Positions 1 through 14,829 of a stretch of DNA of 64,000 nt are shown piece by piece. The DNA lies in assembly GCF_019693215.1 (NCBI RefSeq), contig NZ_CP081183.1:2545226-2609225 (forward strand). Direction: 5' to 3'. The stretch comes from Salinarchaeum sp. IM2453 (GTDB taxonomy: Archaea > Halobacteriota > Halobacteria > Halobacteriales > Salinarchaeaceae). The notes beneath the pieces are model-generated. The model ran no database searches and was not told the DNA's origin. It saw only the letters and a list, made by a program, of their open reading frames with translations. The first letter of the stretch is position 1, and each line of letters starts with the position of its first letter. The position numbers were made by a program, and so were the translations under genes.

Positions 1-591
1 GCTTCATCCCTTCAGATCGCCAGTAATTTGTCTAGCCTCTCAGTACCATACAAGATTACGTCGACGGCTGTTCCCACGCTGCCGCCATTCCTTGATATCT
101 CCCCATCAAACATCACGTTCGACGAACCGGTGGCCCGCGGGGATTCACCTGAATTTGCTATTGTCCTCAGTGAAACGAACGAAGACACAGCTATCAATCA
201 AGTAGAACTGGTTGCAGGCGATCTTGAACATGTTGATAATGAGCAGTCAATCTCGGGGGATCACATCAAGTTCGAGTCAACATCGGTGTCGCTTGATGCT
301 GGGGAAAGAAAGACCGTCGAGACAACAATTAACATACCAAGGGACGCGTCTAGTGGCATGTATACCGGAAATATCGAGGTGACTGGGAGCGACGAAACGG
401 CAGGAGGAGATTCCATGATAGAGTTAACTATTAACGTTCAATTAGCGGCTGAAGATTATGCCGATCCCGATGGAGTTATTCGGTTCAATGGGCTCCGTGA
501 CGCAATCGCTGACTGGCGTAATGGTGTGATCACGAAAGCATTGTTGGAGGATGTCATTGATGCGTGGCGAACACGGCGGGAGATAGACTAA
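1..591 (+). CDS. C-terminal part of a secreted protein with dockerin-like tail (partial)
   Basis: The frame is open from base 1 to the TAG at 591, so only the last 196 residues are in the window and the true start lies upstream. The first 150 or so residues look like a beta-sandwich of the kind found in haloarchaeal surface or secreted proteins: an acidic, Thr/Ser-rich stretch with alternating hydrophobics and a phrase like VSLDAGERKTVETTINIP, typical of an Ig/NEW3-like domain. The last 45 residues (ADPDGVIRFNGLRDAIADW through VIDAWRTR) match the dockerin-like helix pair seen at the C-terminus of many haloarchaeal secreted proteins, with the DG(V/I) loop and the repeated AIxxWR / VIDxWR motif. 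It is therefore probably an exported binding or degradative protein. The catalytic part, if any, is outside the window. Confidence 0.75.
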   Translation, partial: ASSLQIASNLSSLSVPYKITSTAVPTLPPFLDISPSNITFDEPVARGDSPEFAIVLSETNEDTAINQVELVAGDLEHVDNEQSISGDHIKFESTSVSLDAGERKTVETTINIPRDASSGMYTGNIEVTGSDETAGGDSMIELTINVQLAAEDYADPDGVIRFNGLRDAIADWRNGVITKALLEDVIDAWRTRREID

Positions 592-2064: not shown

Positions 2065-2859
2065 TCAAGAGCCTGAAGAACTGTTGCTAGACTCCCCACC
2101 TTTTTTATCACCAGGCCTACGATTATCTGGCCAATTGTCAGGAAAGTCAATTTCATTTTTATCCATGTTAGGATTGTAATAAACAACGTTCCAGTTGACA
2201 AAATAAACAGCAGAGATAGTGCCGGACAAATCAGTGTTTGCCTTCTTAATCTGACTGTTACTATTTGTATCCCATTCAAATTGTTCAGACTCCTTGTCAT
2301 CATCATAGAGTACACGGACAGAGAGGATGCCAGATCCCTGCCCCCGAAATACATTTCCATTGCCAGAGAATTCGGGGGTAGCTGGCTCTGTTCCGCATTG
2401 AACCACAAACCGGCGCTGGTTATTAGCACCAGACAGATCTGCACTTACTCTATCCCCTTCGAGAGTTATGTCAAGCTCAACTGTATCTTCCCCCTTACTG
2501 TTATTACAAGTACCATCGATCGTGGCTGTCTCACCGCCGTCAATCGAATCCTTGTCCCGTTCGAGAGTAATGTCAAGATCTGACTTGATTGTTGCATCTG
2601 TGATGGTAATTTCTTCGGTAAAACGGTTTGTCACGTTCACTAGCGGTTCGGACTCACCTTCATCAAGAACGATCTTTGGAAGGGTCTCATCAGAGTCATT
2701 CTCACCTTGGACATCATAGCCCACGAATGCTTGTTCGTCAGATACTACCTCAATACGCACATCACGCTCAGCAGTTGTGCTACTAAACGCGCCCGAACCA
2801 AGGGTAAACGCTCCAGCACTCGTGCCACCGAGAAGTAAGAGGATCCTTCGTCGTTTCAC
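2065..2859 (-). CDS. Tat-exported DUF1102-like surface protein
   Basis: A 264-residue protein. I chose the GTG at 2857-2859 because it puts a short twin-arginine signal at the N-terminus (VKRRRILLLLGGTSAGAF); an ATG at 2940 would add 27 unlikely residues. The signal is followed by GSGAFSSTTAERDVRIEVV, the same junction as the four proteins at 6.3-10.9 kb and the one at 14.1 kb. The mature part is acidic and beta-rich with two Cys (CNNS, VVQC) and ends in a Gly/Ser-rich tail (GGESSNSSSGS). It probably acts outside the cell as an extracellular or filament-type protein. It is the most divergent paralogue of the set and lacks the VNPDS..F.DVF block, so the family assignment rests mainly on the N-terminus. 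Confidence 0.65.
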   Translation of the reverse strand: MKRRRILLLLGGTSAGAFTLGSGAFSSTTAERDVRIEVVSDEQAFVGYDVQGENDSDETLPKIVLDEGESEPLVNVTNRFTEEITITDATIKSDLDITLERDKDSIDGGETATIDGTCNNSKGEDTVELDITLEGDRVSADLSGANNQRRFVVQCGTEPATPEFSGNGNVFRGQGSGILSVRVLYDDDKESEQFEWDTNSNSQIKKANTDLSGTISAVYFVNWNVVYYNPNMDKNEIDFPDNWPDNRRPGDKKGGESSNSSSGS

Positions 2860-3345
2860 GGCTGAGATTGAATCTATCTCTATGTTACATTCAATCTCTA
2901 CTCTCTTTGTTATGCGGTGTTCAATATGCTGGAAATACATACCTGAGAAGGCGAAAAGTACCCTTGAGATAGGATGCGGTCAGTCGATTTTGATACCAGA
3001 TTGTCTGCACCAATCATGGATCGGTGACAGACTGGGCTGAATAGTAGTTTGGTGGTCCGGTACGCAGTGTACAGGCGGTACAAGGCGACTGCCCCGGGGC
3101 TTGACCCCGGGGTGAGTTCACATTCATGTATGCCAACAGCCGAGGTGTAGGTCTTTACCTTGCACTATCTATAACAGTTGTTGATAATACGATTTCTTTA
3201 TTCAGTGGTGATCCGGTAACAAACCGTGACACACCATCGTCATATGACTCGTGTTGAATAATAAAACTGTGTTTTCAACTACTGATAACCAAAAACAGTG
3301 GAGTCCGGGGCAGGTTTAACTGGACTGGGAACTACATCTATATGC
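2860..3345. other. Intergenic region with IS-end hairpin
   Basis: This region lies between the divergent genes at 2859 and 3346. It holds the IS-end-like sequence described separately at 3069-3120 and AT-rich DNA upstream of the cupin gene. No further gene was seen. Confidence 0.5.
3069..3120 (+). mobile_element. Solo IS end with strong hairpin
   Basis: The segment contains ACAGGCGGTACAAGGCGACT followed by two CCCCGGGG blocks separated by CTTGA, a strong foldback. The same end, more or less decayed, occurs on the minus strand at about 38411-38470 (ACAGGCGGTACGAGGCGGAT when read on that strand) and at about 13983-14045. It looks like the subterminal hairpin of an IS200/IS605-type element left behind after loss of the transposase. 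Confidence 0.5.
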
Positions 3346-3669
3346 ATGGATAGTTTTAACGTAAGCGACGTAGCCGAAGAGATCCCAGAAGATGAACATT
3401 CAACAGAGACCGTTCGCACTGACAATGTAAGCGTTGAAGTAATGGCATTTACACCGGGTGATGACGATCCAATGCATTCACATCATGAAGATGAAGTGTA
3501 TCAGGTTGTCTCTGGACACGGAAAACTCAATGTTGAGGGAAATAGCGTCGACGTTGGTCCCGGGGATGTAGTCCATCTTGAGCCGGGGACCGAACATCAG
3601 TTCCATGATTTCGAAGATGAACTTGTCGTAACTGTGCTTTACGGACCAGCAAAGCACTCAGACGAGTAG
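3346..3669 (+). CDS. Small cupin-domain protein
   Basis: A 107-residue single-domain cupin starting at the ATG at 3346 (MDSFNVSDVAEE). An upstream in-frame start at 3298 would add 16 atypical residues. Cupin motif 1 is seen as MHSHHEDEVYQVVSGHG, providing the two His and the Glu of the usual metal site, and motif 2 as VGPGDVVHLEPGTEHQFHD with the last metal-ligand His. The fold is a small beta barrel that binds a divalent metal. Small haloarchaeal cupins of this type have no fixed function; sugar or mannose-type binding and detoxification have been proposed. The neighbours do not indicate a substrate. Confidence 0.85.
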   Translation: MDSFNVSDVAEEIPEDEHSTETVRTDNVSVEVMAFTPGDDDPMHSHHEDEVYQVVSGHGKLNVEGNSVDVGPGDVVHLEPGTEHQFHDFEDELVVTVLYGPAKHSDE

Positions 3670-3869
3670 GAAACAGCTGCCAGTGGGATGTACTGTTGAT
3701 TGAGACCATTGAGTATCAGTATATCTGTGCACGTCCTCTATTTGCGACACCGTCGTTGGTCTCATGGGTAGGAGTTTATACGTTGAACAGAAGCCTACAC
3801 GGATTATCTCTCTTTCATTCCTCCTTGTCGCCGTTCTTGCAATCGGGGGGATACGAACTGTCTCGGACG

Positions 3870-4196
3870 ATGTATACTGGCAACAGCGGTGACGCCGTCA
3901 GACAGTTTGTCCGAATTGCTGTTGTAATCGCAATATTGCTCGCTGCTGTGCCGCTTGGCTTTTTCTGTGGAAGAATAACAGTGTCAGCACTGACGGACAG
4001 TCTTGCTGCTGGAACTGTGGTGCTTGCAGGATCAGTGATCACGGTAGCAATCGTAGGACTTAGATTGGATGTCGTTGGGGAAGAAGCAGTGCCGAAAACA
4101 CTCAAAGCATATACAGATGCATATGCGGTAAGAAAGCAGAATTGTATGCTTCTTGTAGCGTTCATCATCGTAGGAATACACAGAATATCCACATAG
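3870..4196 (+). CDS. Small membrane protein, unknown function
   Basis: A 108-residue frame beginning MYTGNSGDAVRQF. Residues 15-35 (VVIAILLAAVPLGFF) and 45-65 (AGTVVLAGSVITVAIVGL) form two transmembrane helices. The following DVVGEEAVPKTLKAYTDAYA is soluble-looking, and the last 20 residues (MLLVAFIIVGIHRIST) may form a third helix or come from a frameshifted tail. No family was recognised. It could extend upstream in frame to 3696, but that part is not haloarchaeal in composition. It is a plausible small integral membrane protein. Confidence 0.4.
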   Translation: MYTGNSGDAVRQFVRIAVVIAILLAAVPLGFFCGRITVSALTDSLAAGTVVLAGSVITVAIVGLRLDVVGEEAVPKTLKAYTDAYAVRKQNCMLLVAFIIVGIHRIST

Positions 4197-4757
4197 AGCA
4201 ACCTACGGACAGAACTACGATCAGCCAGGAAGTACAGAACCGCAATACAATTGCCAGAAACAAATTGTGAAAGAATGACAAACAATCCTTTCCTATCATA
4301 TGTCCGGGTCCATTCAAGCATGTATTTCGAAGATTAAACGATAGTACCGGCTAATTCTGGGGGTATATTACAATAAATACAGAGTGTTGATGTTAGTGAC
4401 AACAAGCCAGCGATAACCGGGGCTTGGATGAAAATATCGCGGAACCAACGTGATCAAGAATGCAGACAACTAACCTAAACAGTAACCCGTCAGAGAAATG
4501 CAGTGTACACGGATCGATGACAAAGGTGAATAAGGAATATGCGAATATTCGAGCAAAACTTCAGCACGTGTTTGAGCCAAACAATCATTTATCTTATACA
4601 CAATATTGCAGATTGCTGAAGCAGGCAAAAATAGCTGAAACGCTTCGATTGTTCAAGCTTCGCAGTTTGACTAAACACGTCACCAATTACAAAAGTAATA
4701 TAAGTGGATGTTGTTAATTTAATCACAACCGAACCTTGTTACTCAGATTATCATAAC
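4197..4757. other. Gene-poor stretch
   Basis: Only one frame of more than 80 codons occurs here (4460-4717), and its product is basic and Cys/His-rich, unlike the acidic proteome, so I do not call it. Nothing else is recognisable. Confidence 0.4.
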
Positions 4758-5039
4758 ATGTCCGAAGAAACACAGAAAGACTCGACGACTGTCAATGTTG
4801 ATGTCGGTGATGGGGAGGATCTAGCCGTTGCAGTCACAACTGCTATTGGAGAGATAAAAGATATTCCGCCAGCAGAAGTTGAGTCAATCGATGGCCTTGA
4901 CGGTGAGGCGTTGACGGAGTTCTATCAAACAGCTGTTGCGGGTGAACTGAGCGACATTACAATATCGTTTTGTCACAAAGATGTCAAGGTATCAATTTCG
5001 GACGCTGGCACAGTTCAAGCAGAAAGGAATAGGCTGTAG
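4758..5039 (+). CDS. HalOD1-domain protein
   Basis: A 93-residue acidic protein starting at MSEETQKDSTTVNVD. It fits the Halobacterial output domain (HalOD1): an N-terminal helix (LAVAVTTAIGEIKDIPPAEV), a central phrase IDGLDGEALTEFYQTA corresponding to the usual 'VDPDALDALF' helix, then beta strands DITISFCHKDVKVSISDAGTV. HalOD1 domains occur alone or fused to haloarchaeal response regulators and are thought to relay or modulate signals. The standalone form here has no adjacent receiver protein, so its partner is unknown. Confidence 0.8.
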   Translation: MSEETQKDSTTVNVDVGDGEDLAVAVTTAIGEIKDIPPAEVESIDGLDGEALTEFYQTAVAGELSDITISFCHKDVKVSISDAGTVQAERNRL

Positions 5040-5255
5040 GCTTCCTTATTGGTTGAGCCACACTCTTGCATTACTGCCTCAATTGCTTGCTCTCAGATAC
5101 GATAAAGATAGCATACATATCAATTCATATGATAACAGTTCCGATGACGATCTCGACCGATCTGTGACTTTCGATTGCGGTATGTCCGCTGGTTGCGGTC
5201 AATGCGAACAGACCAACAATTACAAGCAGTATCCACATCACTAATCGAGACCAGT

Positions 5256-5855
5256 TCATGAGGGTTCATCTGGTGGTCCGCTGGACCCAATTCGATGTTG
5301 ATACGAGTAATATGTGTGCACGACCGATGATGCGGCAAACACACTCACGACTACCCCGGCAAGAGCCTGTCCAGAAACGGCACCAAACACAAAAATGCCA
5401 AAGTACGACATTGCCGCCAGTGCGATACAGATTGCTGAGAGTGACAGATAGTATTCGCTCCAGTTGATATCGCGTTCGGGAACATACTCAAGATAGAGTT
5501 CAATCTCACGAGCGGCTTGAGTCAATGTGAGTTCACCGCGTTGCTGATCATAATCGACGACACCGACTTTGTCAAGTTTAGGCAAGTGAGATTGGCGAAT
5601 TGCCGTATATACACGTTTCCGGCTTTGTGACGTAATATTCTGGACAGAGGTGTTATTTTCCCACGCTGCAACCTGATCGACCACTTCTCGAAGCGTTGCT
5701 CGATATCCAGCACCCCGTTGTTTCAGATAGTGGAGGATATACCGACGGCGGCGGTTGCTGAGAACATCGAAAATAGCATCCCGATCGAGTTCATTCTGTG
5801 TCGTTGCGTCCTGTGGTGTTGGAAATGGAATGAGATTCCTAAGCATCCCGACCAC
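5256..5855 (-). CDS. HTH regulator with membrane tail (DUF7344-like)
   Basis: A 199-residue protein. Residues 20-110 form a winged-helix domain of the haloarchaeal DUF7344 type, with the signature DAIFDVLSNRRRRYILHYL, then a loop, then RKRVYTAIRQSHLPKLDKVG, VVDYDQQRGELTLT. The rest carries two hydrophobic helices (about 135-155 and 158-178), so it is probably membrane-anchored. A second protein of the same design lies at 10989-11501, on the other side of the surface-protein genes. Such regulators are common near haloarchaeal exported-protein loci, so control of the neighbouring DUF1102-like genes is a reasonable guess. An alternative start lies three codons downstream. Confidence 0.75.
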   Translation of the reverse strand: MVGMLRNLIPFPTPQDATTQNELDRDAIFDVLSNRRRRYILHYLKQRGAGYRATLREVVDQVAAWENNTSVQNITSQSRKRVYTAIRQSHLPKLDKVGVVDYDQQRGELTLTQAAREIELYLEYVPERDINWSEYYLSLSAICIALAAMSYFGIFVFGAVSGQALAGVVVSVFAASSVVHTYYSYQHRIGSSGPPDEPS

Positions 5856-6240
5856 CCGCAGAACAGATGCATGTCATGATACAGGTAATACTATATATCG
5901 TGTTGTTACTTAGCTAATCACATACTTCAACGTGCTAATAATATTCAAACAGTTGATTAACGAATACTGATTTTACCGTGTATAACCCGTTAAATTACGG
6001 GGCCTGAATGGATAATCATTGATTATACTGCTAACAGATCCATCTACAAGGTGGTTGCAACTAGCAGTATGTCTCGTGTGATCTCCGTCCTGTTCAGACG
6101 GGTTGTTCGTTATTGTGGACGAAATGGCTAGTCACCGGTTATTACACCGATTGTGTAGTTCTGGCATAATTAGTCTCCGTATAATGTCTCTTTGTTCGTC
6201 ATTTGGTTCATGCTACGGCGCGATTACTTCTTGTGTGGCT
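5856..6240. other. Intergenic region upstream of the surface-protein genes
   Basis: This is AT-rich DNA between the divergent regulator (start 5855) and the first DUF1102-like gene. Short plus-strand frames around 6103-6410 overlap the gene at 6305 and look like shadows. No gene is called. Confidence 0.5.
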
Positions 6241-6304
6241 GTGTATACAAAAGGGGGTATCAGAACATATGCGATAATAGGCGCGAAATCGGCGCTGATC
6301 AACA
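6241..6304 (+). promoter_or_regulatory. Conserved leader of DUF1102-like gene (copy 1)
   Basis: The 60 or so bases before the ATG at 6305 share most of their sequence with the leader at 8471-8538: both have ATACAAAAGGGG, then TATCAGA, ATAGGCGCGAA, and a short GC hairpin (GGCGC/GCGC pairs) ending shortly before the start codon. Because the two leaders are conserved while most intergenic DNA here is not, they probably contain the promoter and a structured 5' end. Confidence 0.5.
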
Positions 6305-7459
6305 ATGGACCGACGAAAATTCCTTCTCGGGGCTGGGAGTGCTGCGATCGGTGGCAGTGCATTGGTTGGCTCCGGGGCGTTTACACGAGTGGAATCGCAA
6401 CGCCGAGTAAAAATTGAAGTGGCCGAAGATCCAGATGCATATCTTGGACTGGAAGGATGTGAAGGATCGCCAAATAGCAGCTACACAAATATTGATGACA
6501 GTGGGCACCTCGAAGTTGATATGTCGCCAGATAATACAACCGATGCTGGCGGGCAGGGGATCAACTCAGATTCACGGTCGTATTTTGACGATGTCTTCCA
6601 AATCTGTAATAATGGCAAGCAAGACGTCTGTGTTTGGATCAATGATGATGACGATTGGCCAACGTATGATGACACAGGCGAACGCCGTGTTGAATTCTAT
6701 GTTGGTAACAGTGTTGGAGCCGGAGACCTGACAGGACTTGAGGAGCAGTCAATCATTGGCCAAGAAAATGCCGTTCAACTGACGACTGGCCAGTGTGTCT
6801 GTATTGGAATCGCAACAGTCTCCAAAGAGTTGTCTGAAGAGGATCAACTGCTAGCTGAGCTTGATAACGAGATCACAATCACAGCCGATGCAGATGTCGA
6901 ATGCGAAGCTACGGCCTGTCCGGAACTCTCCGGTGCCTACGAATGTACCTCATATCTTTTCTCACAAGCTGCTGAAGAGTGGGAGCGTATCGGAACAGGG
7001 TTTGCGGTGACAAACTTAGGATCAGCTACAACGGCTGATATTGCGGTCGCAAATGAGCCTGGAAAATGGGAAGACGATCTTGAGATCGGTGCATTTGAGA
7101 CAACGGGTATTGTGTCCGACGCTTCGTTTCCAACACGAGCATTATTATTCTGGGATCCAGTGGATGAGGAGTGTATTGATGTTGTTGATGCACCGACATG
7201 GGGCGAGTACAAAGAAGAGGAGGATATTGATGACCTAGAAGATTGGTTTGATAAGTTTGGGACAGCAGATCCTCCTGATGATATACCAGAAGATCCAGAT
7301 GATGATCTTGTTGTACGTGTTGAGGATATCCCTGAAGAAGGCGTTGAAGACCAAGTTGGACCCGACGAATCAATTCCAGATGATCAATGGCCAGACATGA
7401 GCGATCCTGCAGAAGAGGAGGGATGGATTACCTGCGAAAAGTTTGATGACGAAGAGTAG
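6305..7459 (+). CDS. Tat-exported DUF1102-like surface protein, long acidic form
   Basis: A 384-residue protein starting MDRRKFLLGAGSAAIGG, a clear twin-arginine signal (RRKFL) with hydrophobic core, then GSGAFTRVESQRRVKIEV. The N-terminal 200 residues contain the family block: AEDPDAYLGLEGC, GINSDSRSYFDDVFQICNN, then a strand pattern with VCVWI. A conserved Cys-containing phrase (GQCVCIGIATVSK) follows at about 165-178. Residues 215 onward form a second, beta-rich domain, and the end is highly acidic (DDIPEDPDDDLVVRVEDIPE). Residues 1-200 are nearly identical to the paralogue at 9212. It is probably exported folded and cleaved; the role may be a surface layer, fibre or adhesin subunit. The substrate or partner is unknown. 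Confidence 0.8.
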   Translation: MDRRKFLLGAGSAAIGGSALVGSGAFTRVESQRRVKIEVAEDPDAYLGLEGCEGSPNSSYTNIDDSGHLEVDMSPDNTTDAGGQGINSDSRSYFDDVFQICNNGKQDVCVWINDDDDWPTYDDTGERRVEFYVGNSVGAGDLTGLEEQSIIGQENAVQLTTGQCVCIGIATVSKELSEEDQLLAELDNEITITADADVECEATACPELSGAYECTSYLFSQAAEEWERIGTGFAVTNLGSATTADIAVANEPGKWEDDLEIGAFETTGIVSDASFPTRALLFWDPVDEECIDVVDAPTWGEYKEEEDIDDLEDWFDKFGTADPPDDIPEDPDDDLVVRVEDIPEEGVEDQVGPDESIPDDQWPDMSDPAEEEGWITCEKFDDEE

Positions 7460-8100
7460 TGCAAAGCTAGATATCAGACCATTACGGTGAACTTACGCCG
7501 GTCTACTCTGCTCGGGCTACGCCCTCGCTTTGTTGAGTGCAGGGCTTTGTGCCTTTCGGGCAGGTGTTTCTGGTTCCACGGTGGCACTTGCAAGCCCTGT
7601 CCCGCGCTGGGACAGGCTCACAGCGGTGTCAGTCTCCACAGGTGTTGATTCGGATTGTCTTACCCCCTACTTGCTGGTGACGGGGAAATAGCGTCTGACC
7701 GCGGGTATGATCCCACTCGAAGCCAGCCTCATGAGTAAATCCCGTCACAATTCAATGTCTGGTATCAATTTGGTTGCATGGTTTGATGTGGCTGAGTGAC
7801 CGCTGTATCCCCGCTCTATCTTGCTCCCGTTGGTCGCTCCTTGAGGACGGGAACATAGCCTGTAGATCATATCGAGATTCGGTCCATGATCTGAAGACCC
7901 TCCTTCAAGCCGCCGGCTGTTGATTCCAGCTCACGGTACCGCTAAGTGCCATACCGAGATCGGAGACAGAGGCTTAGTCTCGCTAATAATCCGACCATGC
8001 TGACCAGACTGCAATCATGAACCACCCAGCCAAGCGGTGCGGTTCCGTGGAAACCACACCCTCGTTCACAGGGAGGTGGGAAGTCAGTAATGTTCTATCG
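7460..8100 (-). pseudogene. Decayed tnpB (IS1341-type) fragments
   Basis: No intact gene occurs here. Read on the minus strand, about 7660-7490 gives a degraded TnpB-like tail (TPVETDTAVSLSQRGTGLA, followed by a Glu/Thr/Pro-rich end). At 7820-7865 the sequence CTCCCGTTGGTCGCTCCTTG is nearly the same as the IS edge at 60948-60967. Around 8017-8090 a plus-strand phrase (NHPAKRCGSVETTPSFTGRW) also resembles a TnpB end. At least two element remnants appear to be stacked here. No TnpA was seen. Confidence 0.5.
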
Positions 8101-8470
8101 TGTTGTCAACTATTCGTCCATGCGCTCGTACAGCTTGGAGCATGGCCGCTACAGCAATGCCGAGGCAAACACCTACGAATTGGTCGGAGGAGAACAGCAG
8201 TATTGTGCAACAACGTAATAACACTGGATTAATCATAACGAATAGCGATATTATCTCAAACGATCGGTCGAGTACATTGAAACTCACCGTGGATACACTG
8301 CCAGGCAACAGAATGGATTTCACATACGATTCCAGCACGTTATGCTGTTAGTGTGATATTTCAATTGGTATATCGTCTGGTTATCGATTCATAATCAGTG
8401 GTTGTTTTGTTTGGCCGTGCCATTGAGCAGTCAATTAAAATACACATACAGCGGTTGTATGATTTCCTGC
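8101..8470. other. Gene-free spacer before second surface-protein group
   Basis: No supported gene. Frames of 80 or so codons on both strands overlap one another and have no recognisable motif. Confidence 0.4.
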
Positions 8471-8538
8471 GAGTGCATACAAAAGGGGATTCCTATCAGA
8501 TACATGAATAGGCGCGAAGCCCCGCGCCAGAATAACCC
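8471..8538 (+). promoter_or_regulatory. Conserved leader of DUF1102-like gene (copy 2)
   Basis: This leader pairs with 6241-6304. It contains ATACAAAAGGGG, TATCAGA, ATAGGCGCGAA and a GC hairpin (GGCGCG...CGCGCC) ending about 10 bases before the ATG at 8539. It is the likely promoter and leader for the three closely spaced genes 8539-10877. Confidence 0.5.
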
Positions 8539-9189
8539 ATGGATCGACGAAAGTTTCTGATCGGAGCTGGTGGGGCTGCCATTAGTGGCAGTGCTATCCT
8601 TGGCTCCGGTGCGTTTACACGGGTAGAATCGCAACGCCGAGTAATAATCGAAGTCGCAGAAGACCCAGATGCATATCTCGGACTGGATGAGTGTCCTGAA
8701 TCGCCAAATCAGAGCTACGCAGATATCGATGAGGATGGCCATCTAGAAATTGATATGTCGCCAGACAATCCAACCGAGGTGGGCGGCGAAGGAGTTAACT
8801 CAGATTCATTCACCTTTGCTGATGATGTTTTTGAGGTCTGTAATAACGGGAAGCAGGAAGCGGTGCTCTGGATCGAATCCAGCGATGCTGAAGATCTCGA
8901 TGATCCACCAGAAGAGTATGAAGACGATCTCCCTCGAGTGCAATTCTACATCCTCGACGAGGAGGGAGACATCCAGCGAATTAGTGCCGAAAATCAAGAT
9001 GAGGCAGTTGACAACGAGTGGTTCACCTCGATTGAAGAAGGGGGCTGTGTCTGTGTCGGAATCCGGACGATGACGAAGGGACTCGAAACTGGCGATCAGC
9101 TTATTGATGATGACGAGGTCGTCATCCACGCCAATGCAGATCTGGTAGGTGACGAGAACGGGGGGAATGGGGATGACAACGGGGACTAA
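8539..9189 (+). CDS. Tat-exported DUF1102-like surface protein, short form
   Basis: A 216-residue paralogue beginning MDRRKFLIGAGGAAISG, a twin-arginine signal, then GSGAFTRVESQRRVIIEVAE. It has the core block AEDPDAYLGLDEC, a GVNSDSFTFADDVFEVCNN phrase, and the Cys-containing GGCVCVGIRTMTKG. Unlike the paralogues at 6305 and 9212 it stops just after the first domain with a Gly/Asn/Asp tail (DENGGNGDDNGD). It is followed 22 bases later by the next paralogue, so the two are almost surely cotranscribed. It is probably extracellular. Confidence 0.8.
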   Translation: MDRRKFLIGAGGAAISGSAILGSGAFTRVESQRRVIIEVAEDPDAYLGLDECPESPNQSYADIDEDGHLEIDMSPDNPTEVGGEGVNSDSFTFADDVFEVCNNGKQEAVLWIESSDAEDLDDPPEEYEDDLPRVQFYILDEEGDIQRISAENQDEAVDNEWFTSIEEGGCVCVGIRTMTKGLETGDQLIDDDEVVIHANADLVGDENGGNGDDNGD

Positions 9190-9211
9190 TAATTTCAGAC
9201 AGTGATCAAAT

Positions 9212-10255
9212 ATGGATCGACGAAAGTTTCTGATCGGAGCAGGTGGGGCCGCCATCGGTGGCAGTGCTCTGCTTGGCTCCGGGGCGTTTACACGAGTGGA
9301 ATCGCAGCGGCAGGTAACCATCGAAGTCGCTGAAGACCCAGATGCATATCTGGGCTTGGAGGGATGTGAAGGATCGCCAAATAGCAGCTACACAAATATT
9401 GATGACAGTGGGCACCTCGAAGTTGATATGTCGCCAGACAATCCAACCGACGCTGACGGGCAGGGGATCAACTCAGATTCACGGTCGTATTTTGACGATG
9501 TCTTCCAAATCTGTAATAATGGCAAACAGGCCGTCTGTGTCTGGGTTGAAGATGATGAGGGATGGCCAACATATGAACGTGACGGCCAAGATGACGAGCG
9601 TCGTGTTGAATTGTACACTGGATCTAGCATGGGTGCAGAGGATCTGACTGATCTGGAAGAGCAGTCAGTGATTGGTGAAGCCAATGCGTTACTCCTTGGA
9701 GCTGGAGATTGTATCTGTGTTGGTGTCGCAACAGTCTCGAAAGGGTTGTCCGAGGAAGATCAGCTACTTGATGAGCTTGATGATGAGATCACGATCGTCG
9801 CAGATGCAGATGCAGAATGTAATGCAGAGATTGCGTGCGGTGATCTCGAAGCCGAATATAACTGCACAATTGAAGACGACGGGGAATTCATCGGTACCCG
9901 AGTCGATGTTAATAACCTCGGAACCGACGCAACAGACTTTGGCTGGGCCGTAACTGGCGATCCAAACACCGTTAGAGGCCTTGTGCGAAATGTTGCGGCA
10001 TTAGACTCAGAAACATTCACAACCGATGCAAGTGACCTGCAGGACGGTATCGTCTGGTGGGAAAGTCCCGAAGAGTGTGGTGAAGAGCTTGATCTACAGA
10101 CGTATGCTGAGTTCGTAGATGAACGCGGTGAAGAGGATGAATTGATCGAAACTATAGAAGAGGATGAGGTTGAGATTCCGGATGACGCATACGTCGCTGT
10201 CATCGATGGATTGCCAATCGACGACGATACTCGAGTCATCTGTGACGAGGAGTAG
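9212..10255 (+). CDS. Tat-exported DUF1102-like surface protein, two-domain form
   Basis: A 347-residue paralogue starting MDRRKFLIGAGGAAIGG with the same Tat signal and GSGAFTRVESQR junction. Its first 200 residues closely match those of the protein at 6305 (GINSDSRSYFDDVFQICNN, GDCICVGVATVSKGL), which points to recent duplication. The second half, from CGDLEAEYNCT onward, is a separate beta-rich domain with NNLGTDATDFGW and an acidic end. Two-domain composition with paired Cys suggests a folded extracellular protein. It is the middle gene of a likely three-gene unit, with spacers of 22 and 49 bases. Confidence 0.8.
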   Translation: MDRRKFLIGAGGAAIGGSALLGSGAFTRVESQRQVTIEVAEDPDAYLGLEGCEGSPNSSYTNIDDSGHLEVDMSPDNPTDADGQGINSDSRSYFDDVFQICNNGKQAVCVWVEDDEGWPTYERDGQDDERRVELYTGSSMGAEDLTDLEEQSVIGEANALLLGAGDCICVGVATVSKGLSEEDQLLDELDDEITIVADADAECNAEIACGDLEAEYNCTIEDDGEFIGTRVDVNNLGTDATDFGWAVTGDPNTVRGLVRNVAALDSETFTTDASDLQDGIVWWESPEECGEELDLQTYAEFVDERGEEDELIETIEEDEVEIPDDAYVAVIDGLPIDDDTRVICDEE

Positions 10256-10304
10256 CCGGTAGTAACCGGCCTGTTGCCTCCTGGTCGTATATAACAAATC
10301 TACT

Positions 10305-10877
10305 ATGAAACGACGGAACTTCATTGCCGGCGGCAGTAGTTTAGCACTCGGTGGGGCGTTTCTTGTAGCGAGTGGTGCCTTTACGCGCGTCGACGCAGAA
10401 CGGGAGGCTGTAATCCAGATTAATGACGACCCAGATGCAATCATGGGTCTTGAACCCTGTACAGGCAGTCCAAACGGTGAATTTGCCCAGATCACTGACG
10501 ACAATACCGTGGCCATATCTCTTTCAGAGACAACGGTCACGGATCCTGGTGGCCGTGGTGTAAATCCCGGGGCAAAATCACAGTTTGATCGTGTATTCGA
10601 AATCTGTAATCAGGAAACCCAAGATCACCAAGTCTGGATTCGTGATGAAGAAAACTGGCCAGTCGATGAAGAAACTGGGGAACGGCGCGTTGACTTTTAT
10701 CTTGCAGATAATCCCGATCGATCAATTGTCGGGGAGGAAAACGCCGTAGAACTACTACTCGGTGAATGTATTTGCGTTGGGGTTGAAACCGTCACATTCG
10801 GTCTCAGTGCTGGTGAACAGCTACTCGAAGAACTTGACAATCAGATTTGGATTGAAAAAGACGGGACGACAGAATAG
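10305..10877 (+). CDS. Tat-exported DUF1102-like surface protein, single domain
   Basis: A 190-residue protein with signal MKRRNFIAGGSSLALGG (twin Arg, RRNFI) followed by ASGAFTRVDAEREAVIQI. It carries the family core DDPDAIMGLEPC, GVNPGAKSQFDRVFEICNQ and the closing GECICVGVETVTFGLS. It contains only the first domain, with a short tail. It is the last gene of the cluster and more diverged than the three upstream copies, so it is an older duplication. Its position, 49 bases after the previous gene, supports cotranscription. Confidence 0.8.
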   Translation: MKRRNFIAGGSSLALGGAFLVASGAFTRVDAEREAVIQINDDPDAIMGLEPCTGSPNGEFAQITDDNTVAISLSETTVTDPGGRGVNPGAKSQFDRVFEICNQETQDHQVWIRDEENWPVDEETGERRVDFYLADNPDRSIVGEENAVELLLGECICVGVETVTFGLSAGEQLLEELDNQIWIEKDGTTE

Positions 10878-10949
10878 CTGGCACGTGTCGGCCACTTTCC
10901 GATGACATCAGCCTTACTTCCTTCCATAGTGAATTACTTCTCTTACTCG

Positions 10950-10986
10950 ATTTCAAGGCGAAAGCCTCGCGCTTCAGCGCGGTATC
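10950..10986 (+). mobile_element. Solo IS200/IS605-type end hairpin
   Basis: The sequence AAGGCGAAAGCCTCGCGCTTC and its GC foldback (GCGCTTCAGCGC) are shared with 34668-34720, where they are inverted, and resemble the ends of the two 500-bp elements at 27597 and 37025. There is no coding part. It lies between convergent genes. Confidence 0.45.
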
Positions 10987-10988
10987 GA

Positions 10989-11501
10989 TCAGAGTATATG
11001 CATGATACCAGCAGCATACAGTGCCACAATTAACAGCAAGATATATACCGGAATGACGGTCGTACACAGATCAATAAGACCAAAAAGAGCCCCACTGACA
11101 ATAACAACGCCGATGACACCTGCGAATGCTGCTGTCTGTTTCACTCGCTCATAGTGGTTTGGCTGGTGGGTGAGCTGTTCAATAACAGGGTGATCCTCGT
11201 CAGTGAGCGCTACAGTTTTTCGATCATCATCATATTCAATGAGATCACAATTATCAAGCTTTGGAAGGTGTGTCTGATGTAAGGATACATAGACACTCTG
11301 TTCGTGTTGTCGCTCTGGTTCGCCATTCTCGCACTCACGAGCAGCAATTTTGCCAGCAAGATCTCGAAGTTCGAGTTGGTCCGCATCGGTGTTAAGAAGA
11401 ATATCAATCGTTTCACGACGACGATCATTGCTTAATAGGTCACAAATCTCCGCGTCTGGTAGTGTGCCATCCTGTTCTCCCGCGTCAATGTATTTGCTCA
11501 T
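10989..11501 (-). CDS. HTH regulator with membrane tail (DUF7344-like)
   Basis: A 170-residue protein with the same plan as 5256-5855: a winged-helix domain (AEICDLLSNDRRRETIDILL, then QSVYVSLHQTHLPKLDNCDL, IEYDDDRKTVALTDED) followed by two transmembrane helices at about 118-138 and 142-165. It is probably a membrane-linked haloarchaeal transcription regulator. With its homologue at 5.3 kb it brackets the block of DUF1102-like genes, so each may control the adjacent surface-protein genes. Convergent with the gene ending at 10877. Confidence 0.75.
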   Translation of the reverse strand: MSKYIDAGEQDGTLPDAEICDLLSNDRRRETIDILLNTDADQLELRDLAGKIAARECENGEPERQHEQSVYVSLHQTHLPKLDNCDLIEYDDDRKTVALTDEDHPVIEQLTHQPNHYERVKQTAAFAGVIGVVIVSGALFGLIDLCTTVIPVYILLLIVALYAAGIMHIL

Positions 11502-11624
11502 GTATTTGGATCACCCTCCCCCTGGCATTCATTAATTTGTGCTTTTTGTTACCACTTACAAATAGTCTTTCCTTCATTTCATTTGTGATATATTTGTAAT
11601 GAACCATGAAAATGGAGCATTGTC

Positions 11625-12428
11625 TCAGTATGAGCCATTAAATACTGTATTATCACATTCTGTACATTCTGTTGATACAGTCGTGACAGAATCCGAACAA
11701 CACGACTGAACAACATCTTCGACTTCGGTTAACCGTGCATCACACGCCGGGCAATGTTCCAAGAATACCCGGGTCCGGACAAGTAACTCTGCCCGCTCTT
11801 GGCCGCTAAGATCATCCCATTCAGAGATCCATTCTGCGAGCGTGGGCTCAAGCGCAAGATCAGAGATAAATGCTGCCTCCGAGATCCACCGTCCCGCATA
11901 ATCACCATCGTGTCGAACAACAAATTGGCTGGACTGGTCATCAAAGGTAAGCTGTTCGGGATCGACATCAATTGTTGCTGCCAGTCGTGACCGAGCTGTG
12001 TCCGTATCACGCACTGACTGCATCCGCTGTCGCCACGTGTCTCGGAACTGTGATGATAGCTCGAAGTCCTCTGTATCAGCATCGACCTGTACAATGCCGG
12101 ATTTGATTAGAACCTCACCCAATTCAGAGATATCTCTGTCATCAGGAAGCGTATCCAGTGTTTCCTGTGCTGGCGTTTTGCCAAACTAGCGGAGAACGCG
12201 ATCAGGAAAATACGTTTGTGTTAACTGTGGGGTGCCAGGGATCAGATATCCACGAGCGTAGATTGCAAGAAAGCTTAATCCAAGAATTATACCACCAAGC
12301 GTAAGCGATACTGTGGCAGCAAGACCACCAAGGACGAATGCGATACCTGTATTCACGATCGTACATGGATAACATCGATTCTCACCTGTGTACTCAGGCT
12401 GTCGTATCCAGTTGATTACCCGTTCCAT
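11625..12428 (-). pseudogene. Membrane/zinc-binding protein gene with an in-frame TAG
   Basis: Two halves sit in the same frame, separated by a single TAG at 12186-12188. The upstream half (from ATG at 12428, MERVINWIRQPEYTGENRC) has a Cys pair (CYPC) and two transmembrane helices, and ends FPDRVLR. Directly after the TAG the frame continues FGKTPAQETLDTLPDDRDIS and 180 more residues with late Cys motifs (CPACD, CC, CTEC) fitting a zinc ribbon. The downstream half has no good start codon near its beginning (first is a TTG at 12122). The two parts together look like one 267-codon haloarchaeal protein. TAG is an ordinary stop elsewhere in this window, so this is best read as a recent nonsense mutation, perhaps from TGG or TTG. 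Function unknown. Confidence 0.7.
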
Positions 12429-12686
12429 ACGAGTACTATGACAACCTGTACCGTGTTGAGTATACACTCCCTTCAAGCAACTAGTTGAGGATTAATATCC
12501 AATTTACATCACGATAATATACTTGATAGTGCCTTGTTGTGCAATGGTCATTGTGAGAAAAAGCGTCAAAACAGATAGCAGCAATAGGGCTTGAGCGTGG
12601 GGTAATGTGGCATATAATCGTATGTTAATGACTGATTTCTCTGGTTTAATCGTGGTTTCAAGACAATACAGCCTGCGATTAGCTAA

Positions 12687-13889
12687 GTGAATATAGTCGA
12701 TAATGTTGCGTCGTGGCTGGATAATCACCGCCAAGGACACAGCATGGCTCATAGTATTACACAAATTCTCTCAAAAATTGGCCTGATTTTGCTACTGGTA
12801 ATTGTTGGAATTCTTCTGGTTGGATACGCGTTCAATCAGCCACTGTTATTTGCACACATTGAGACAGATAGTATGGAACCAACGATTGAACCCGGAGAAG
12901 TTGTTGTTGTTGCTCCACCGGAACTTACTGGAGATCCTGATGTTGGTGATGTCATCGTGTTCGATGCCGAATATACTGATGGCGGAGGCCTTGTGACACA
13001 TCGGGTGGTCGGAGAGGAGTCACAGGGTTATATCACACAAGGTGATGCAAATCTGGTGACCGATCAAGACTCTGGAGAGGCACCAATTACTGACGGACAG
13101 GTCGAGGCTGTTCTACTCTCAACTGGGGGATCTGTCATTACAATTCCATATCTTGGAACAGCTGCGGAGGGAATTCAATCGACAGCAACAACAGTACAAC
13201 AGTGGTTATCCAACGTCTTTGGCACAGACCTGTTCGATGGGATGGAAGGCCAAGCAATCATTATGTTTACAGTCGGTGGAATTGCGTTACTGCTTGGACT
13301 TCGAGATAGTGATTCTAAACGCTCCAGAGATCGGTCACGAAGTCGAAATCGGGCAGGGTACATCCCTGCAAGTTCGCTCCTGATTGGCTTTGTTGTACTG
13401 CTTATATCCGCAGCATTGCTTGGAATGCTTTTGCCAGCCGGAACAACAACCTATGAGGTGCTGAGCTCTGAATCTGAGTCAGGGCCACCACATACGATTG
13501 AAGCGGGCGGCAGTGATACAGTTAATTTCACGGTTGGAAATGAAGGATTGATTCCGACACACGTCTATTTGGAACCAGCAAGTGATGGCATAGCGATTGA
13601 GGATGATCAGTTCCGGCTTGGACACAACGAATTAGATAATGCAACCGTTACACGGTCAGCCCCGCCTGAGACGGGACTGTACTATCGGTCCGTCGAAGAA
13701 TATCGATATTATGCACTGTTACCGGGCCCGGTCATTGACTGGCTGTACCAATATCATCCATGGCTTCCACTGGCTGGCATCAGTGCAGTCATCGGTGGCG
13801 TTGCGTATGGAGTCGGTCGGGCATTGCTTGGATCCCGCAACGCCGTGCGTCTTCGATCACGGAGCCGGACAAGAGATCGATACGAATGA
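12687..13889 (+). CDS. SipW-like type I signal peptidase (S26B)
   Basis: A 400-residue membrane protein starting at GTG 12687; an ATG 19 codons later is an alternative. Residues 27-48 form the first helix, and TDSMEPTIEPG carries the catalytic Ser (about residue 62). VTHRVV supplies the His (about 105) that replaces the bacterial Lys in archaeal/ER-type S26B enzymes, and TQGDAN the Asp (about 120). Later there are helices near 197-212, 240-260 and 355-375, with a beta domain in between (HTIEAGGSDTVNFTVGNEG). It cleaves signal peptides on the outer face of the membrane. The extended C-terminal part is common in haloarchaeal SipW-like proteins. Its place beside six exported paralogues suggests that it processes them. 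Confidence 0.85.
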   Translation: MNIVDNVASWLDNHRQGHSMAHSITQILSKIGLILLLVIVGILLVGYAFNQPLLFAHIETDSMEPTIEPGEVVVVAPPELTGDPDVGDVIVFDAEYTDGGGLVTHRVVGEESQGYITQGDANLVTDQDSGEAPITDGQVEAVLLSTGGSVITIPYLGTAAEGIQSTATTVQQWLSNVFGTDLFDGMEGQAIIMFTVGGIALLLGLRDSDSKRSRDRSRSRNRAGYIPASSLLIGFVVLLISAALLGMLLPAGTTTYEVLSSESESGPPHTIEAGGSDTVNFTVGNEGLIPTHVYLEPASDGIAIEDDQFRLGHNELDNATVTRSAPPETGLYYRSVEEYRYYALLPGPVIDWLYQYHPWLPLAGISAVIGGVAYGVGRALLGSRNAVRLRSRSRTRDRYE

Positions 13890-13982
13890 TTACCAAGATT
13901 AGCTCCCAAAAAGAGGGTTTGTAACGTAATGAGAAAACTTGGTATGACAGGTTGATTGCAGTCAAATTCCGTGTCAGTTGAG

Positions 13983-14045
13983 ATGCGTCAATATCTCAGG
14001 GGCAATCCATGTGGCATCCGCCTCGATTATTCTGTGAAATACCAG
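13983..14045 (-). mobile_element. Decayed solo IS end
   Basis: The sequence GTGGCATCCGCCTCG and flanks match the end at 38411-38470 (GTGGCATCCGCCTCGTACCG) and, inverted, 3069-3120. There is no coding sequence. It lies in the short spacer between the signal peptidase gene and the next, minus-strand gene. Confidence 0.45.
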
Positions 14046-14058
14046 TGTATCAGTATAG

Positions 14059-14643
14059 TCAGAGGACATCGGATAGATTTTCTCGAGTATCTTCAGTGCC
14101 AACGTGGATGCGGAAATTGCCGTCCATTTCGCCGAGAAACTCTGATGCAGGTGGTGTTTCAATGGTAATGTCGACGTTCACAGCACCCAGTTCTCCGACC
14201 TGAGGCAGATCATCGACATCATTGTAGTCGTCAACAAGCAATGATGTTCCATCCTCAATCATGTCGGCCTCCTCGCCGTGAGCTGTCATGGTGATTTCTT
14301 CGAGTTCGTCAAGTCCATCAATTTCAATTCCAACCCGGAGCTCAGTGCTACTGGTATTCTGAATCTGGAAGATTTCCGTAAAGTAAAATCGTGTTGCAGG
14401 GTTCAACCCGTTGCCACCCATTGTAGGTCCGCCGGTAAACGACAGTCCAAGCTGTCCAAAGGTGGTGTCAGTCGCGTATCGGTCATCAAGAGCGGTGAGT
14501 TCAATCAGTCCAGCGCCATCACCAGCTGTGGAGACACCAAAGTCACGCTCAGCTTCTGCGGTGCCAAATGCACCACTTCCGATGGCTGCAGTGAGCCCAG
14601 CAAAGATCGACCCGGCACTGAAGACAAACGTCCGCCGTCTCAT
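14059..14643 (-). CDS. Tat-exported DUF1102-like surface protein
   Basis: A 194-residue protein with signal MRRRTFVFSAGSIFAGL (twin Arg RRRTF), then GSGAFGTAEAERDFGVS, the family junction. The core phrase NGLNPATRFYFTEIFQIQN corresponds to the G(V/I)N-D-S...F-DVF-I-N block of the paralogues, and the rest is predicted beta (RVGIEIDG, VNVDITIE, FRIHVG). There is no second domain, and no Cys pair like that of the 6-11 kb group. It stands convergent with the signal peptidase gene, and is the sixth DUF1102-like gene in 12.6 kb. Confidence 0.75.
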   Translation of the reverse strand: MRRRTFVFSAGSIFAGLTAAIGSGAFGTAEAERDFGVSTAGDGAGLIELTALDDRYATDTTFGQLGLSFTGGPTMGGNGLNPATRFYFTEIFQIQNTSSTELRVGIEIDGLDELEEITMTAHGEEADMIEDGTSLLVDDYNDVDDLPQVGELGAVNVDITIETPPASEFLGEMDGNFRIHVGTEDTRENLSDVL

Positions 14644-14829
14644 TGTTGGGGCTCCATTATTGTATGTACCTCCTATGTATAGACGGTTGTATAAATTACC
14701 ATTTAAGCTCGGTTTATATTGTATTGGCTTACCGGAATATGGGATTTGATTAGTTCAATAGACGCCAGAAAAGCATGGCAACGGTGGTATGTGCTGCTTG
14801 AAGATGGTCAAGGAGCAGCACAGGGCTCA

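Follow-up and report, generated by a model that had tools for sequence, protein, structure and literature searches.

The window analysed here is a 64,000-nucleotide stretch of the 2.66-Mb chromosome of the haloarchaeon Salinarchaeum sp. IM2453 (NZ_CP081183.1, positions 2,545,226 to 2,609,225). A locus near its beginning very likely encodes a pilus of the tafi type, both its subunits and its processing enzyme. Tat-fimbriae (tafi; Tat denotes twin-arginine translocation) with TafA, TafC, and TafE have been reported from haloarchaea (Galeva et al., 2025, iScience 28:111793, as cited in PMC12687288). The locus consists of five genes for tafi-like pilins (6305, 8539, 9212, 10305, and 14059), one gene for a putative accessory subunit (2065), and one gene for an S26 signal peptidase (12687), where each gene and its protein are named after the first coordinate. 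Judged from sequence comparison, the locus is a diverged and expanded tafi set, and its pilus is of a kind already known. The first-pass annotation had read the six secreted proteins as candidate subunits of a surface fibre or biofilm matrix with TasA of Bacillus as the precedent. The fibre reading is supported by the findings in this work and withstood the refuting conditions that had been set for it. However, tafi is a much closer precedent than TasA, and the body of 2065 is unlike those of the other five proteins.

The sequence profile of eleven paralogues acquired one strong match among the PDB sequences, which is 9p0a, a 215-residue 'Pilin' (E 4.5e-24). The profile of 65 mature sequences matched the same entry at E 9.2e-23. 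The title of this entry in Foldseek is 'Structure of Natrinema sp. J7-2 Tafi pilus' (release July 2025). On these profile matches, five of the six window proteins are homologous to the solved haloarchaeal pilin, and 2065 matched 9p0a at E 0.03 only.

The predicted fold is in line with this homology. The AlphaFold2 model of mature 6305, which was built from 65 sequences, exhibits two beta domains. The predicted local distance difference test score (pLDDT) is about 90 for domain 1, with block values of about 84-95 over most of its length, and is <50 for residues 1-14. Domain 1 was compared with solved structures using VIA-align, where 9p0a is ranked first (Z 10.1, 149 residues, root-mean-square deviation 4.6), AbpA of the Pyrobaculum bundling pilus (7ueg) is ranked second (Z 8.4, 138 residues), and unrelated immunoglobulin (Ig)-like sandwiches reach Z 7.3 and lower. 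The alignment with AbpA, which comes from Pyrobaculum calidifontis, includes the N-terminal extension; however, the identity is ~10% and the host lineage is another one. Domain 2 of 6305 matched generic Ig-like sandwiches only (Z up to 6.7).

The homology extends to the N-terminus of the mature chain. The resolved chain of 9p0a consists of residues 28-215 and residue 28 is the F of GTGA/F (the slash marks the cut), so the mature chain very probably begins at this F. Every one of the 65 mature sequences in the alignment has F1 and R8; positions 10, 12, and 14 are hydrophobic and positions 9, 11, 13, and 15 are not (the V10/V12/V14 alternation). This conserved alternating strand is unpaired in the monomer model and appears to resemble a donor strand. 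We infer donor-strand exchange for the window pilins because TasA filaments use donor strands and their archaeal relatives have been reported to do likewise (PMC9674648).

All six open reading frames (ORFs) of the secreted proteins are intact. The pattern RR...[GA][ST]GAF within the first 80 residues was identified in exactly these six among the 118 window ORFs of at least 90 residues, and 200 shuffles of the same N-termini gave a mean of 0.0 matches. The Tat-type RR signal followed by GSGAF, which had been claimed for all six proteins, is thereby confirmed, and RR is present in the signal of 81 of the 92 relatives. Two other claims of the first-pass annotation hold in part. The core G(V/I)N..S...F..(V/I)F(Q/E)(I/V), which had been ascribed to five of the six, is fitted exactly by 6305 and 9212 only, since F is replaced by A in 8539, S is replaced by A in 10305, and L and T occupy two positions in 14059; five window proteins fit the relaxed form G[VIL]N...[VI]F[QE][IV]. 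The DUF1102-like label is correct for 6305, 8539, and 9212, which are over the Pfam cut-off, but not for 10305 and 14059, which are marginally under it, or for 2065, which has no match.

The peptidase gene that had been recognised within the locus is intact, and its product has the SMEP (S62), THRV (H105), and GDAN boxes. The protein scored 57.4 bits with the model for archaeal signal peptidase I, over the cut-off of 51.85, whereas its likeness to Bacillus SipW is weak (37.5 bits, cut-off 190 not reached). It is the only intact SipW-like peptidase gene of its type in the genome.

The pairing of this peptidase with the pilins is conserved across the order, which was one of the checks named in the first-pass annotation. 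The co-occurrence of TafE-like proteins (E <=1e-10) and S26 (E <=1e-30) was surveyed in 293 related genomes, where 186 genomes have both, two have TafE-like proteins only, ten have S26 only, and 95 have neither, so that 12 of the 293 are discordant. When 40 neighbourhoods of TafE-like genes were sampled from other Halobacteriales genomes, S26 was identified within 18 kb at 37 of them, with a median of 2.2 kb to the nearest pilin. Taf-like genes are also present in nine of the 11 regions of other genomes that surround an S26 gene, and ten of these 11 are not near a listed TafE match. The two exceptions are the two family-mate genomes, in which S26 lies away from any detected Taf-like gene.

Two further families, DUF7344 and DUF5305, are present at 34 and 31 of the 40 sampled taf loci, respectively. 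All three DUF7344 genes of the genome of the window sit at taf-like loci. S26 and DUF7344 share a locus in the window (12687 with 5256 and 10989), and they also do so at L070-L078, which are canonical taf loci, and at L175, where the solved pilin is encoded. The use of this partnership to mark the module is an observation of the present analysis and is not a published definition. One genome of the order encodes the solved pilin at 100% identity; S26 lies ~1.4 kb from that gene, and DUF5305 and DUF7344 are nearby. Two possible further pilus parts are encoded at this locus, a CARDB-domain protein and a DUF7289 protein that begins like a type IV pilin (L175:9665-10849, 11978-14686).

The six proteins could instead be secreted surface proteins that carry a Tat signal and an Ig-like sandwich and do not polymerise, such as proteins associated with the surface layer or binding proteins. 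Beta-sandwich folds are common on haloarchaeal surfaces, and numerous unrelated Ig-like domains resemble domain 2 of 6305 as well as the body of 2065. However, a solved pilus subunit is homologous to five of the six and has the same cleavage site and N-terminal strand, and the peptidase partner is near-obligatory. We consider this explanation very improbable.

A TasA-type biofilm matrix system proper, that is, an archaeal equivalent of tapA-sipW-tasA that makes matrix fibres, is also very improbable. In the window, a SipW-like peptidase adjoins beta-sandwich proteins whose cleavage site has an aromatic residue, and AbpA, the second-best fold match, has been reported to be related to TasA (PMC9674648, PMC9905601). 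The window set and TasA-TapA-SipW of Bacillus subtilis both have a dedicated SipW-type S26 and beta-sandwich fibre subunits with donor-strand exchange (PMC9674648), the latter being predicted for the window. Both have an aromatic residue just past the cut, at P2' in TasA (PMC10269814) and at P1' in the window proteins. Against this, no window protein matched a TasA family of Pfam or NCBIfam up to E 1, the SipW model score of the peptidase is far below its cut-off, and the closest solved relative by both sequence and fold is the Tafi pilus. The window set also differs by its Tat instead of Sec export and by having no TapA, and TasA entries are not among the matches listed in the 6305 fold comparison. 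The window locus is not a TasA-TapA-SipW operon by sequence, and it is related to one in fold through AbpA.

The window locus shares with tafi and 9p0a the Tat signal, the GxGA/F junction, the homologous pilin domain, and the predicted fold, together with the S26 and DUF7344 neighbours that are found at canonical taf loci and at the solved-pilin gene. It differs in having five pilins in one stretch, two of them with two domains, and ten TafE-like genes within 30 kb. Several results speak against a tafi-type pilus. The NCBIfam equivalog cut-offs (TafA 190, TafC 410, TafE 155 bits) were reached by no window protein, with best scores of 31 (TafA), 40 (TafC), and 72.5 (TafE) bits. The window proteins are not named TafA, TafC, or TafE for this reason; the solved Tafi pilin is likewise under the TafE cut-off with 53.5 bits. 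The Foldseek E value of 6305 with 9p0a is only 3.4e-4. The Fisher p of the co-occurrence with S26 (2e-62) is not a true probability because the genomes share ancestry. No DUF5305 gene or remnant was found in the window. DUF5305 is also undetected at some canonical taf loci (L070, L078), so its lack at the window locus does not exclude tafi membership. The only DUF5305 gene of the genome is intact; it lies upstream of the window at a distance of ~20 kb and adjoins a peptidase gene that is split by an insertion sequence (IS).

The lack of DUF5305 at the window locus, the split peptidase gene, and an in-frame TAG in a conserved neighbour gene (11625-12476) would also suit a decaying remnant, where the genes are non-functional relics of once-active tafi loci. 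This explanation is unlikely, as the genes for the six subunits in the window and for the 12687 peptidase are all undamaged. Because these genes and the one distant DUF5305 gene are all intact, the full tafi set is still in the genome.

A tafi-type pilus remains the favoured explanation, and its assembly can be proposed as follows. The pilins 6305, 8539, 9212, 10305, and 14059 would fold in the cytoplasm and exit via the Tat route, as their RR signals suggest. They would then be cut at GSGA/F, most likely by the adjacent SipW-like S26, to which the gene pairing and the start of the solved chain point. The freed N-terminus F..V.....V.V.V, which is disordered in the monomer model, may complete the sandwich of the next subunit and build up a donor-strand-exchange filament by analogy with bundling pili. 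The two-domain pilins may carry extra surface domains that decorate the fibre, 2065 may sit at the filament end or act as an anchor or adapter, and the DUF7344 proteins may regulate the set. The likely purpose would be adhesion, cell-cell contact, or matrix. We infer that the source organism forms such filaments. The features of the locus are listed in Table 1.

Table 1. Features of the tafi-like locus and of its surroundings in the window.
Coordinates	Strand	Feature	Evidence
1..591	+	C-terminal end of 1128-aa Tat-type surface protein	No family over Pfam cut-off
2065..2940	-	TafC-like accessory subunit (putative): Tat signal, GSGA/F, donor-strand-like N-terminus, PapD/Ig-like body	TafC E 2.6e-10, far under cut-off
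5256..5855	-	DUF7344 protein, probable winged-helix-type regulator	Pfam E 6.4e-30
6305..7459	+	Two-domain tafi-like pilin, 384 aa	DUF1102 E 2.4e-8; TafE E 3.5e-20; AlphaFold2 model
8539..9189	+	Single-domain tafi-like pilin, 216 aa	DUF1102 E 8.9e-7; TafE E 4.3e-15; paralogue alignment
9212..10255	+	Two-domain tafi-like pilin, 347 aa	DUF1102 E 4.7e-8; TafE E 1.5e-18
10305..10877	+	Single-domain tafi-like pilin, 190 aa	TafE E 2.3e-17; 9p0a pilin E 6.6e-6 (phmmer)
10989..11501	-	Second DUF7344 regulator (probable)	Pfam E 1.1e-26
11625..12476	-	Broken gene	One reading frame, in-frame TAG at 12188-12186 (two ORFs)
12687..13889	+	SipW-like archaeal S26 signal peptidase	Ser62/His105; ~200-residue membrane-anchored C-terminal extension
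14059..14643	-	Divergent single-domain tafi-like pilin, 194 aa	TafE E 6.7e-12; 9p0a pilin E 6.7e-7 (phmmer)

Translation of 2065 probably begins with GTG at 2859 rather than ATG at 2940. The AlphaFold2 model of mature 2065 (13 sequences, pLDDT 76) exhibits an N-terminal Ig-like domain. Its fold search is led by PapD-like chaperones along with other Ig-like domains (Z 8.7 at most), and 9p0a is not among the matches listed. The hhalign probability of 2065 with the pilins is 97.7% when the first 26 mature residues are included and 1.3% when they are left out. Homology of the whole protein to the pilins was rejected, as the profile match is confined to the first ~26 mature residues. No specific chaperone function was assigned, since the scores of GGA, adaptin, and MSP domains are just as high (Z 7.6-8.5). 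Since the N-terminal cassette of the pilins is shared and the body is PapD/Ig-like, 2065 could be a filament-end, anchor, adapter, or other accessory subunit. Proteins of the 2065 type adjoin DUF7344 at many taf loci. A speculative and rather doubtful suggestion is that they serve archaea as a counterpart of TapA or of the bacterial PapD-type chaperones; such a chaperone or terminator of the pilus would donate a strand to a pilin, accept none, and start, anchor, or end the fibre.

The pilin genes 8539, 9212, and 10305 are closely spaced, where 9212 starts 22 bases downstream of the 8539 gene and 10305 starts 49 bases downstream of the 9212 gene. The mature chains of 9212 and 6305 are 58% identical in alignment. 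The ~1.1 kb between the pilin genes 6305 and 8539 (7460-8538) is without a sizeable ORF, and no taf remnant was found there by tblastn (best E 0.09). Within this gap, 7801-7851 has 94% identity to a Natronomonas pharaonis plasmid.

Intact relatives of the broken gene at 11625-12476 were identified at taf loci of other haloarchaea (L088, L089, L112, L113, L117, and L125), and the gene may be a module component that was lost in the window genome. The closest relative of the whole locus that was found is in Halorubrum vacuolatum (L112), where the gene order is DUF7344, pilin, 11625-like gene, and S26, and DUF5305 is also present. The start codon of the gene of the 1128-residue surface protein (L034:2431-5817) overlaps with the 3' end of the pilin gene upstream of it. 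This protein is possibly an adhesin of the pilus or one of its cargoes.

The window genome acquired twelve matches to the TafE model (E <1e-8), compared with one and two in its family mates. Ten of the twelve genes cluster at 2530-2532 kb and 2541-2560 kb, and the outliers are at 1967 and 2439 kb. The locus extends past 2065, with four more Taf-like genes and one more pilin gene 4-25 kb upstream of the window. The upstream region (L033, L159) also has a DUF7344 gene, the DUF5305 gene, the split peptidase gene, and an IS66-type transposase gene. The split gene is a second SipW-like peptidase gene, interrupted by an IS630-type transposase gene (L159:5173-7408, genome 2523-2525 kb). Both transposase labels were assigned from the sequence by eye.

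These findings link a structurally solved pilus to the Pfam family DUF1102, of unknown function, and to hundreds of haloarchaeal proteins not yet characterised. Across the order, the pilins have the SipW-like peptidase as an almost constant partner, so the link between peptidase and pilin is directly testable. The window genome is a natural expansion, with twelve TafE-like genes and one intact peptidase of its type. Of interest to specialists are the extent of the expansion, the near-constant pairing with the peptidase, and the accessory subunit with its PapD-like body.

No relatives among IMG/VR contigs passed confirmation, and a viral origin of the locus has no support. Between the end of the 1128-residue surface protein gene and 2065, positions 951-1408 have 94% identity to Natronococcus occultus plasmid DNA and partly to other haloarchaeal plasmids, and this segment is probably a mobile element or a remnant of one.

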